From Terriglobia bacterium (lineage in GTDB: Bacteria; Acidobacteriota; Terriglobia; Bryobacterales; Bryobacteraceae): DNA of 43,697 nt. The stretch covers positions 1-43,697 of the forward strand of contig JAIQFN010000049.1 of NCBI GenBank assembly GCA_020073265.1, in the 5' to 3' direction. Position numbers and translations under genes: made by a program. The notes under the pieces were generated by a model. It did not search any database and was not told the origin of the DNA. It was given only the letters and a program-made list of their open reading frames with translations. Positions 22,186 through 25,536 of the stretch are shown here, in pieces (within the stretch, counting starts at the first letter, position 1; each line of letters opens with the position of its first letter).

Positions 22186-22641
22186 CTATGATTTGGCGCC
22201 GCCGCGCGCCTCAGCCTCAGCCAGCCATCCGCGCCGCAGCCGCTCGGCCGGAACGCTCGAAAGATAGGGCTTGAGGTCGAGAATCGGCGTTCCATCCAGC
22301 ATGTCGACACCGCGGACGTGCAGCTTCGATCCCTCCCGGCGCAGCAGCTCAACCACCGTCAGCCCGATCGGGTTCGGACGCCGCGGGGATCGGGTGGCGA
22401 ACACGCCGTGCGGCCGGCCGTCGCTCGGGGGCTTCGCCTCTAGGCTGAACCCTTCGGAGCGATCGAAGGCCCAGATGACGAACAAGTGTGAAAAGCCTTC
22501 TACGTCGGCGAGGCCAGGCTCAAACTCCGGTAATATTTCGAGAACTCCCTCCGCGTCGTGCTTCGCGCCTAGTCCTTTCGGAATTTCGCTGCCTTGCTGG
22601 TAAGGACTCCTTACGTATCCGATTGGCTGCATGGAAAACAT
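22186..22641 (-). CDS. trmO: tRNA (N6-threonylcarbamoyladenosine(37)-N6)-methyltransferase TrmO
   Basis: The 151-residue protein is a TsaA/YaeB/TrmO domain, which methylates N6 of t6A37 in tRNA-Thr(GGU) using SAM. Evidence is MQPIGYVRSPY at the N-terminus, FSHLFVIWAFDRSEGF, and the diagnostic ATRSPRRPNPIGLTVVELL. GVDMLDGTPILDLKPYL closes the domain. ATG 22641 fits the usual family N-terminus; ATG 22632 is also possible, and the open frame upstream to 22716 lacks family similarity. It lacks the extra C-terminal domain of E. coli TrmO. It is divergent from the selenoprotein-like gene. tsaB, needed for t6A itself, is also in this window at 28187. Confidence 0.9.
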   Translation of the reverse strand: MFSMQPIGYVRSPYQQGSEIPKGLGAKHDAEGVLEILPEFEPGLADVEGFSHLFVIWAFDRSEGFSLEAKPPSDGRPHGVFATRSPRRPNPIGLTVVELLRREGSKLHVRGVDMLDGTPILDLKPYLSSVPAERLRRGWLAEAEARGGAKS

Positions 22642-22658
22642 AGCGTGGCTATTGTCGA

Positions 22659-23300
22659 ATGGCGAGGGATCAAAAGTCCAGCGCGATGCAGGCTGGCTAC
22701 AATAAAGTTGTGGCACGCATCCGCGGACTCGAATCCAGCGAAACCGGACCGCTCACGCGCTTTCTCTACTGGATGACCAGGCGCAAAATCGGCCGCGTGG
22801 TCCTGCCCTTCAAAGTCGCCGCGCATCATCCCCGGCTGCTGCTCGCCACCGGCCAGATGGAGATGGGCCAGCAAGCCGCGCGCAGCGTCGATCCCAAGCT
22901 GAAAGCCCTGGCCAGCATCAAGGCCGCGCTGCTGATCGGTTGTCCGTTCTGAATCGACATCGGGTCTGCCGTGGGCAGACAGGCCGGCGTCAGCGAAAAT
23001 CAGCTCATGGCGCTCCCCGATTTCGAAAACGCGTGCGAGTTCACGCCGATCGAGAAGCTGGTGCTGCGCTACGCCGTGGCCATGACCGCGACGCCGGTAG
23101 AGGTCCCCGACGAACTGTTTCAAGCCCTGCGCGAGCAATTCGATGAACGCCAGCTGGTCGAGCTGACCTCCGCCATCGCGTGGGAGAACTACCGGGCCCG
23201 TTTCGATCACGCCTTTGGCATCGAAGCCGAAGGTTTCTACCGGGGCGCGCTTTGCCTGCTGCCTCAACGAGATACGGCCCACCCCGCCGCCCACTCCTAG
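22659..23300 (+). CDS. AhpD/carboxymuconolactone decarboxylase-family protein, probable selenoprotein (in-frame TGA = Sec)
   Basis: Two open segments, 22659-22949 and 22953-23300, are in the same frame and separated only by TGA at 22950-22952. Read through, the protein has 213 residues and the active-site sequence IGCPF-U-IDIGSAVGR, where family members have CPFC; selenocysteine would be residue 98 and its partner C95. The downstream part continues the same CMD-family domain (LEKLVLRYAVAMTATPVEV, QLVELTSAIAWENYRARFDH). Family members are thiol peroxidase or disulfide-exchange enzymes. A perfect hairpin starts 11 nt after the TGA. The start is uncertain: ATG 22686 or GTG 22710, the latter after a TACAAT box, are alternatives. 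Without Sec decoding only an inactive 97-residue N-terminal fragment would be made. Confidence 0.8.
22698..22703 (+). promoter_or_regulatory. Possible -10 box TACAAT before GTG 22710
   Basis: TACAAT lies 6 nt before an in-frame GTG of the selenoprotein-like gene. It would produce a leaderless or nearly leaderless transcript starting protein synthesis at the conserved ARIRGLES segment. It lies inside the longer open frame, so it competes with the upstream start choices. Confidence 0.3.
22964..22980 (+). promoter_or_regulatory. Bacterial SECIS-like hairpin
   Basis: GTCTGCC (22964-22970) and GGCAGAC (22974-22980) pair perfectly over 7 bp around the loop GTG. The hairpin is 17 nt long and begins 11 nt after the TGA at 22950-22952, the same spacing and size as the minimal upper stem-loop of the E. 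coli fdhF SECIS. A G at the first loop position also fits the bacterial SECIS rule. The hairpin lies in coding sequence for conserved residues, so part of the pairing could be coincidental. Confidence 0.7.
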
Positions 23301-23393
23301 GGTATTCACCGCACGCTGCGGGTCGTATTCCCCTAGGACCTATAAGGTTTTAGTACCCTTCGGACGATACATAGTTTTAGCGGCTGGCAACGC

Positions 23394-24542
23394 GTGTCTC
23401 CGATACTTCACAAGTCGATCGAACGCAAGGCGCGCCGCATCGACGATCCGATTGCGCGCTTGCAATACTTGAAGCGCCGGATGGCAACCGCCAGCGCTCC
23501 AGCGGCTCTCTGGAACTATCGAAAGCTACCGGCCATCGGCCTGGTGCTCCTGCTGGCGATCGTGCTCAGTCCCGGTTATAAGGCTTCGAGCGCCGAACAG
23601 AGCCTGCCGCCTCCGCGCATCCCGCACATTTCGGCGCCCGCCGGCGCCAGCGTCGCCAAGGTCTGGCTGGTGGACAAGTCCAACGACTTCGAAACCTACA
23701 GCAACGGCCTGCGGATCGACGACCGCTACGCCATCTCCAACCAGAGCCGTCTGTTCTATCCGGTATACAAGCGTTCCGCGGTGGACCCGGACCAGCCCGA
23801 GTGGCGCTCGGAACCGGCCGGCATCGTGTATCACACCACCGAGAGCGACCAGGTGCCGTTCGACCAGGGCCAGAACGGAGCGCTCAAGCGGATTGGCCAC
23901 CAGGTGCTCAGCTACGTGCGGCAAAACCACTGCTATCATTTTTTCATCGACCGCTTCGGCCAGGTGTTTCGCGTGGTTGAGGAGTCGGATGTGGCCTTTC
24001 ACGCCGGCAATTCGATCTGGGCCGACGACCAGGTGGTATACGTGAACCTGAACAGCAGCTTCCTGGGGATCGCCTTCGAGACCCAGACACAGCGCGGCCA
24101 GGATCTGGCGTCCGCGAATCCGGCGCAGGTTCATGCGGCGCGCGTGCTGACCGAGATGCTTCGCAGCAAATACAATATTCCGGCGGCCAACTGCGTGACG
24201 CACGCGCAGGTTTCCGTGAATCCCGACAACATGCTGGTGGGCTATCACACCGATTGGGCGGGCAATTTTCCATTTCTGGACGTGGGCCTGAGCGACAACT
24301 ACGGAGCGCCGCCGGCCAGCATCTACGCCTTCGGTTTCGAATACGACCCCGTGTTCGTGCACGCCACCGGAGTTCGCATGTGGGAAGGACTCACGCTGGC
24401 CGAAGACCAGCTACGCATCCAGGCGGCGGCGCGCGGGCTTCCCATTTCGAAATACCGGTCATTGCTGCGGAAGAAGTACAAGGAGGTTCTGGCTGCCGTC
24501 AAGGCCGTCAACGAAGCCAGAGAGAACGACCATGCGACCTAG
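23394..24542 (+). CDS. Membrane-anchored N-acetylmuramoyl-L-alanine amidase (Amidase_2 type)
   Basis: The 382-residue protein has a basic cytoplasmic N-terminus, one membrane anchor (LPAIGLVLLLAIVLSPGY, about 45-62) and a periplasmic Amidase_2/PGRP-like domain from about 135 to 300. Probable zinc ligands are H147 in VYHTTES and H270 in VTHAQVS. FIDRFGQVFRVVEE (about 185-198) and AFHAGNS (202-207) are domain hallmarks. Such enzymes cut the amide between muramic acid and the stem peptide. The start is GTG 23394; ATG 23481 would keep the anchor but drop 29 residues. It overlaps the actin-like gene by 11 nt, so a coupled function in wall remodelling is likely. Confidence 0.82.
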   Translation: MSPILHKSIERKARRIDDPIARLQYLKRRMATASAPAALWNYRKLPAIGLVLLLAIVLSPGYKASSAEQSLPPPRIPHISAPAGASVAKVWLVDKSNDFETYSNGLRIDDRYAISNQSRLFYPVYKRSAVDPDQPEWRSEPAGIVYHTTESDQVPFDQGQNGALKRIGHQVLSYVRQNHCYHFFIDRFGQVFRVVEESDVAFHAGNSIWADDQVVYVNLNSSFLGIAFETQTQRGQDLASANPAQVHAARVLTEMLRSKYNIPAANCVTHAQVSVNPDNMLVGYHTDWAGNFPFLDVGLSDNYGAPPASIYAFGFEYDPVFVHATGVRMWEGLTLAEDQLRIQAAARGLPISKYRSLLRKKYKEVLAAVKAVNEARENDHAT

Positions 24543-25536
24543 CGACAAAGCCAATCACTCCGCCGTCGGCGTGGACGTCGGCACCAGCCGCGTCTGCCTG
24601 GCGCAACGCCAGGGCGATACATTCCAGTATGAGACGCAGCTCAACGCCTTCGTCACCGTTCCATACTCCAGCATCACCGAGAACGTGTTGAAGAAGGAAA
24701 GCGTGCCGCACACGGTTTCGGGCGCCGAGATCATCGTGCACGGCAACGAATCGGGCCGCTTCGCCGACCTGCTGAACATCGAGACCCGGCGCACCATGGA
24801 CAAGGGGCTGCTGAATCCGGCCGAGCCGTCCAGCCTGGACATGCTGGGGAAAATCGTGGAGTCGCTGGTGGAACCCACCGAGGAGAAACGCAAGTTGTAC
24901 TTCACGGTTCCGGCCGCGCCGCTCGGCTCTGAGGACAACCTCACCTATCACGAGGCCACGCTGCGCCAGATCTTCAGCGACCTGGGTTATCAGGTGAAGA
25001 GCATCAACGAAGGGCTGGCCGTGATCTACTCCGAGCTGGAGAGTTCCAACTACACCGGCATCGGGATCAGTTGCGGGGGCGGCTTGTGCAACATCTGCGT
25101 GGCGTACCTGTCGGTCCCGGTGCTGAGCTTCTCGATTCCCAAGGCCGGCGATTACATCGACTCGAGCGCCGCCACCATCACCGGCGAGCGCGCCAATCGC
25201 GTGCGCATCGCGAAAGAACATTCCTTCCACTTCAACGGATTTTTCGCCGACCAGCTCGAGCAGGTGCTGACGGTGTACTACGACGAGATGATCCAGTCGC
25301 TGGTGCAAGGCATCAAGCAGGCCTTCGCCAGCTCGCGCAATCTGCCCAAGTCCAGCCGGCCGCTGCCCATCGTGCTGAGCGGCGGGACCGCGCTGCCGGA
25401 TGGCTTTCGCGACCGCTTCGAGAAGATCCTGCTGGAAGCCGAAATCCCGATCTCGACCACCGAAATCCGCCTGGCCGCCGATCCGGTGCACGCCTCGGCC
25501 AAGGGCGCGCTGATCGCCGCGCTGGCCGAGGGCTAA
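24532..25536 (+). CDS. Actin-like ATPase (MreB/FtsA/Hsp70 superfamily)
   Basis: The 334-residue protein has the actin-superfamily nucleotide site: phosphate-1 VGVDVGTSR (12-20), phosphate-2 TGIGISCGGGLCNICVAY (175-192) and adenosine motif IVLSGGTALPDGF (280-292). A connecting segment YQVKSINEGLAVIYSEL (about 153-169) has the usual E before the phosphate-2 strand. It lacks FtsA's 1C domain order and is shorter than DnaK. It is soluble with no signal peptide. Coupling to a membrane-anchored peptidoglycan amidase suggests a cytoskeletal scaffold that positions or activates that enzyme. This is inference from context. Confidence 0.78.
   Translation: MRPSDKANHSAVGVDVGTSRVCLAQRQGDTFQYETQLNAFVTVPYSSITENVLKKESVPHTVSGAEIIVHGNESGRFADLLNIETRRTMDKGLLNPAEPSSLDMLGKIVESLVEPTEEKRKLYFTVPAAPLGSEDNLTYHEATLRQIFSDLGYQVKSINEGLAVIYSELESSNYTGIGISCGGGLCNICVAYLSVPVLSFSIPKAGDYIDSSAATITGERANRVRIAKEHSFHFNGFFADQLEQVLTVYYDEMIQSLVQGIKQAFASSRNLPKSSRPLPIVLSGGTALPDGFRDRFEKILLEAEIPISTTEIRLAADPVHASAKGALIAALAEG

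Follow-up and report, generated by a model that had tools for sequence, protein, structure and literature searches.

A predicted AhpD/CMD-fold selenoprotein with an in-frame UGA in the genome of a Terriglobia bacterium

Introduction

Does a TGA in the middle of an otherwise continuous reading frame end the gene, or is it read as an amino acid? The question is raised by a locus in a 43,697-nucleotide stretch of DNA from a Terriglobia bacterium (hereafter the window), which makes up a whole contig (G000:C21) of the draft assembly GCA_020073265.1 (6.41 Mb, 131 contigs, 98.18% complete, 3.34% contamination). A sequence-only reading had proposed that this TGA stands in place of the second cysteine of a CxxC motif and encodes selenocysteine (Sec). 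We compared related loci, searched the genome for the decoding machinery, analyzed the RNA downstream of the UGA, and modeled the protein. Our conclusion is that Sec is very probably inserted at the UGA of a redox protein with the AhpD/CMD fold. The locus also shows, cleanly and with good controls, how mechanical frame calling can split a gene in two.

AhpD-like selenoproteins with a CxxU motif were already known, as the sequence-only reading had stated (PMC1088965, PMC2398784, PMC9312934). The 2005 description of a CMD-domain (Pfam02627) CxxU selenoprotein from the Sargasso Sea (PMC1088965) was followed by entries in the tables of reviews of 2022 and 2026 (PMC9312934, PMC13188914). Since the kind has been in print from 2005 onward, the window protein is a new, well-supported example of an already known kind of protein. 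By its description, the Sargasso Sea protein has the same Pfam domain and CxxU as the window protein. The CxxU motif is likewise shared with the AhpD-like/YciW (COG2128) selenoproteins (PMC2398784, PMC9312934), and the first of these sources lists two CxxU proteins, AhpD-like 1 and AhpD-like 2. For Acidobacteria, a count from 2006 gave four selenoproteins in three families (PMC1794560). No word beginning with 'acidobacteri' occurs in the available text of PMC1088965, PMC9312934, or PMC13188914. Literature searches on AhpD/CMD selenoproteins, Acidobacteria, Solibacter, and the matching NCBIfam name, in which subscription journals are thinly covered, gave no title on this branch among the matches listed.

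Gene and domain

As drawn, the selenoprotein gene occupies 22659..23300 on the forward strand and encodes 213 amino acids plus a stop. The ATG at 22659, the TGA at 22950..22952 (+), and the TAG stop at 23298–23300 all lie in a single frame, and translation across the TGA gives ...LLIGCPFUIDIGSAVGR.... The UGA is thus codon 98, the second redox residue of C95-P-F-U98, and frame, domain, and the codons at related loci all agree with its placement at the second Cys of the motif (GCPFU). The first redox residue, Cys95, is encoded by TGT at 22941..22943 (+) and is invariant in an alignment of twenty-five rows. Mechanical frame calling does split this gene in two, as had been anticipated.

The Pfam CMD domain (PF02627) is matched at 37.8 bits, against a cut-off of 23, over residues 64–139. 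This match spans the TGA codon at residue 98, so that both halves belong to one domain as well as one frame. The AhpD core domain of NCBIfam (TIGR00778) was not reached (23.5 bits, with 27.8 required). The best NCBIfam match is NF053654, 'YciW-related (seleno)protein', with 121.5 bits over residues 19–194 (116.3 by six-frame search), yet this is far below the cut-off of 310.

The start proposed at 22659 probably lies upstream of the true one. Residue 18, which is Val (GTG) in the window, aligns with a Met in 19 of 24 relatives, and residues 1–16 of the structure model have pLDDT below 50; for these reasons, GTG 22710 (or ATG 22686) is probably the likelier start. The conserved part of the protein begins at about residue 18.

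Predicted structure and possible activity

The structure model, built with the twenty-five-row alignment, is all-helical and has a mean pLDDT of 86.2. It contains the AhpD-like helical fold, with Sec98 in a helix of residues 96–108 and Cys95 just before it. The best folds in the PDB are those of PA0269, the debrominase Bmp8, and peroxidase-related proteins; Mycobacterium tuberculosis AhpD itself (1lw1) is matched weakly (E 1.1). Like the window protein, both PA0269 and M. tuberculosis AhpD are helical folds with a redox pair of the CxxC type (2ijc, 2o4d; PMC3141380); the window protein differs from them in having Sec for the second Cys, Ala83, Gly102, and Cys199.

Two of these differences fall on the catalytic relay. 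In AhpD this consists of Glu118, Cys130, His132, Cys133, and His137, and in PA0269 the source describes Cys48, Cys51, and His55 as invariant among the structures it compares (PMC3141380). In the window protein the relay Glu, fifteen residues before the second Cys, is replaced by Ala83, and the relay His, four residues after it, by Gly102. The earlier assignment to the AhpD/CMD family therefore stands as far as the Pfam domain and predicted fold are concerned, with the qualification that TIGR00778 is missed and two AhpD relay residues are absent.

The absence of that Glu and His leaves room for a selenoprotein that is neither a peroxidase nor a thiol adaptor, for example one resembling a reductive dehalogenase, or a reductase of another substrate. 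Bmp8 (6ohi, 6ohj) shares the fold and is among the best matches both by sequence (37 bits) and by structure (6ohj, E 6.0e-7, 20% identity in the fold alignment), and its TM by query length (0.71) exceeds that of PA0269 (0.61). However, the sequence scores of PA0269 and its kin are higher (up to 46.6 bits), PA0269 has the slightly better fold E-value (2ijc, 4.0e-7) and is the best PDB match on both counts, and the neighboring genes examined point to no pathway. We regard a dehalogenase-like or other such activity as possible, if doubtful. Peroxide or disulfide reduction seems the likeliest activity, and we lean toward it with some reserve.

TGA and cysteine codons at related loci

We looked for related loci in sixty-one genomes, in 396 genomes belonging to the phylum, in a set of named genomes, and in the window's own genome, and obtained seventy-five (L024–L098). 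The loci read are mostly the best match per genome, and matches listed without a locus were left unread. Two loci (L097, L098) that match the C-terminal part only were left out. At the Sec site, the remaining seventy-three readable loci, including that of the window, have TGA in forty-three cases and TGC or TGT in thirty; with mostly one best match per genome, this ratio is not a population frequency. The comparison of homologous codons suggested by the sequence-only reading thus bears out its proposal, and the recurrence of TGA at the same aligned codon is far beyond chance. In a tblastn ranking, the twenty-two loci nearest to that of the window all have TGA, and the first Cys locus is L062.

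Related loci come from named Acidobacteria, Phycisphaerales/Phycisphaerae (L086, L088), and Gemmataceae (L093). Within the window's phylum, 396 genomes were sampled, and at least twenty-three of them, the window's own included, have TGA at the site. The window's own genome also carries three Cys paralogues (L050, L054, L055). A scan of viral contigs found no relative. In L093 and L098 the match shifts frame within the gene, which indicates that these copies are broken or misassembled.

On a tree of the seventy-three loci, the Sec label requires nine changes (at least eight of them on supported branches), compared to 23.6 for shuffled labels. The tree was rooted at the midpoint, and the placement of some long rows is unsure. 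The window falls in a clade of twenty-eight Sec and two Cys rows with support of 98/94 (the focal clade).

We also examined how the relay residues are distributed over these rows. The relay Glu is present in 16/43 Sec rows and 21/30 Cys rows, the relay His in 15/43 and 25/30, and both together in 15/43 Sec rows versus 21/30 Cys rows. While the raw counts favor the idea that loss of His follows gain of Sec, independent pairs on the tree hardly differ (median p 1). We do not claim such a sequence of events, because the distribution of the relay follows clades and because five of the thirty Cys rows (L033, L039, L062, L078, L096) also lack the His.

The C-terminal tail holds a further cysteine, Cys199 (TGC, 23253..23255, +), which may be a third redox residue. 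The tail is modeled with low confidence. A Cys is found at this place in all fifteen Sec rows of the closest branch. Among the other thirteen Sec rows of the focal clade, L030 is cut off, L028 has its tail Cys close to this position, and the remainder have none in the tail; in L058 and L061 a Cys lies earlier, around the last helix.

Selection on either side of the UGA

We estimated dN and dS separately for the two halves of the gene in ten comparisons with other TGA loci. For the closest relative, L025, the half before the TGA has dN 0.203 and dS 0.87, and the half after it dN 0.134 and dS 1.18. In most comparisons synonymous change approaches saturation, so L025 alone yields a usable dN/dS ratio. 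In all ten comparisons dN is lower than dS on both sides of the TGA, and in all ten the half that follows the codon has the lower dN of the two. This pattern of substitution indicates purifying selection on the part of the gene that follows the UGA.

The hairpin after the UGA

Directly 3' of the UGA the window reads AUCGACAUCGG-GUCUGCC-GUG-GGCAGAC. The hairpin (GTCTGCC / GTG loop / GGCAGAC; 22964..22980, +) covers +15 to +31, taking the U of UGA as +1, begins eleven bases past this codon, and has a perfect stem of 7 bp closed by a GUG loop. Only 0.35% of 2000 synonymous recodings reach a stem of this length at the site. Across the related loci, the stem-length test gives a value below 0.05 in 34/43 TGA rows versus 1/30 Cys rows; nine of the forty-three TGA rows fail the strict hairpin test.

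By free energy alone, the hairpin in the window is modest and not outstanding: an equally good fold is reached by 37 of 500 synonymous recodings and by 16 of 200 dinucleotide shuffles (z −1.76 against the shuffles). The mean folding z is −1.91 for TGA rows versus −0.41 for Cys rows, with a Mann–Whitney p of 1.4e-8 that is optimistic because the rows are related.

In the twenty-eight Sec rows of the focal clade, 183 of the 196 cells for pairs +15/+31 through +21/+25 remain paired (allowing G-U). Compensatory changes are seen in the outer two pairs, which are C-G, U-A, or G-C depending on the row, and the first base of the loop (+22) is G in 28/28 rows; the innermost pair is open in seven of the twenty-eight. 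The other fifteen TGA rows have their stem two bases further on, with 98/105 cells paired. Cys rows are paired in 85/210 and 73/210 cells in the two registers. When the partners were slid over eighteen registers, the maxima outside the true register were 102/196 and 59/105. When the 3' letters were shuffled 1000 times, the paired cells averaged 156.5 and 83.7, with maxima of 168 and 90, and the observed value was reached in 0/1000 shuffles.

No SECIS family of Rfam matches the window hairpin. From its position and covariation, which TGA rows show and Cys rows lack, we identify it as a bacterial SECIS element, the structure that the sequence-only reading had suggested looking for.

These results bear on whether the TGA might be a nonsense mutation, either in a recent pseudogene or as a sequencing error. 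In favor of this, a TGA is one base away from TGC or TGT, and the assembly is a draft in 131 contigs. Against it, TGA recurs at the same codon in 43/73 readable loci, dN is below dS after the TGA in 10/10 comparisons, and a covarying hairpin accompanies the TGA rows and not the Cys rows. We reject this explanation on these three grounds and consider it very improbable.

Selenocysteine machinery in the host genome

We next asked whether the organism has the means to decode UGA as Sec, as had been supposed. A tRNA-Sec with anticodon TCA was found at 76 bits (cut-off 47), and selA (442.6 bits), selB (384.6 bits), and selD (376.5 bits) are all over their cut-offs. Each of the four is on a contig other than that of the window, which, in a draft with 3.34% contamination, is a point against the assignment. 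A second tRNA-Sec match, at 48.1 bits and barely above the cut-off, is a tRNA-Ser according to ARAGORN. The complete set supports Sec decoding in this organism.

The selD gene (L018, C85:8028-8939, −) has one in-frame TGA, giving GUAS near its start, followed by a hairpin with a GGT loop. It is likely to be a selenoprotein gene itself.

Besides the window's own genome, 115 genomes gave a match; we searched forty of these, picked by hand, for selB and found it over the cut-off in thirty-five. It is present in 27/29 of those that carry TGA at the site and in 8/11 of those for which the loci read all have Cys (not found in G231, G404, and G446). The two TGA genomes in which selB was not found are G039 (64% complete) and G170 (95% complete). 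G170 has both TGA and a hairpin at the site (L079), yet selB was not found in this nearly complete genome.

UGA is a sense codon in some bacteria, and it could be read here as Trp or Cys through a changed code or a suppressor tRNA. However, two of the five window frames checked that have Pfam matches end in TGA, which means that UGA also terminates genes in this genome. Together with the presence of tRNA-Sec, selA, selB, and selD and a hairpin that tracks the TGA rows, this leads us to reject a changed code as extremely improbable. Equally negligible is the idea of two proteins, one stopping at the UGA and a second starting from GTG 22971 (109 amino acids), which we reject because, though both frames appear in a mechanical ORF listing, the UGA would split one CMD domain and its redox motif, the Cys homologues are one chain, and the predicted model is one helical domain.

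Discussion

The preferred reading is thus an all-helical redox protein of the AhpD/CMD family with Sec as the second active-site residue. By analogy with known bacterial Sec decoding, SelB and Sec-tRNA would bind the hairpin, and Sec98 would be inserted where translation would otherwise end. Cys95 and Sec98 would then form the redox pair. The selenolate may attack a peroxide, a disulfide, or another oxidized substrate, and Cys95 would resolve the intermediate as a selenenylsulfide, after which a cellular thiol would regenerate the enzyme. Cys199 may serve as an extra resolving or exchange thiol.

Selenocysteine is ionized at neutral pH. As a consequence, the Glu and His that activate Cys in AhpD may be dispensable in a Sec enzyme, and both are missing here. 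A branch with Sec kept and the Glu/His relay absent would offer a natural setting in which to ask what selenium contributes to an AhpD-like active site.

The missing classical relay and the C-terminal Cys kept in the closest Sec branch are the less ordinary features of the window protein. One could go further and propose that this branch forms a class of CMD-fold selenoenzymes of its own, with Sec making the Glu/His relay dispensable and the C-terminal Cys joining the catalytic cycle. This would be a selenoperoxidase or reductase that is complete in one protein and works by a new mechanism, present in at least two phyla (Acidobacteria and Planctomycetes groups). We think this broader proposal unlikely.

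Other features of the window

The frames flanking the gene match TrmO (on the other strand) and, downstream, N-acetylmuramoyl-L-alanine amidase; neither hints at function. We compared neighbors for the window and fourteen relatives, some of which are cut short by contig ends. Antisense frames aside, only genes for DUF885 and an amino acid permease are common to at least four loci (L090, L091, L092, L095, with the two genes identified in L091). Gene context is silent on function, since the window belongs to none of the groups with shared neighbors.

Opposite the selenoprotein gene lies an antisense frame of 232 amino acids (22611-23309, −), and similar frames occur in 9/14 related loci. It is most likely a shadow of codon use. 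Elsewhere in the window, a protein encoded at 24532-25536 (+) matches Pfam Volactin (PF25216) at 257.9 bits. Volactin is an actin-like family known from haloarchaea, and the match here is in a bacterial-looking genome.
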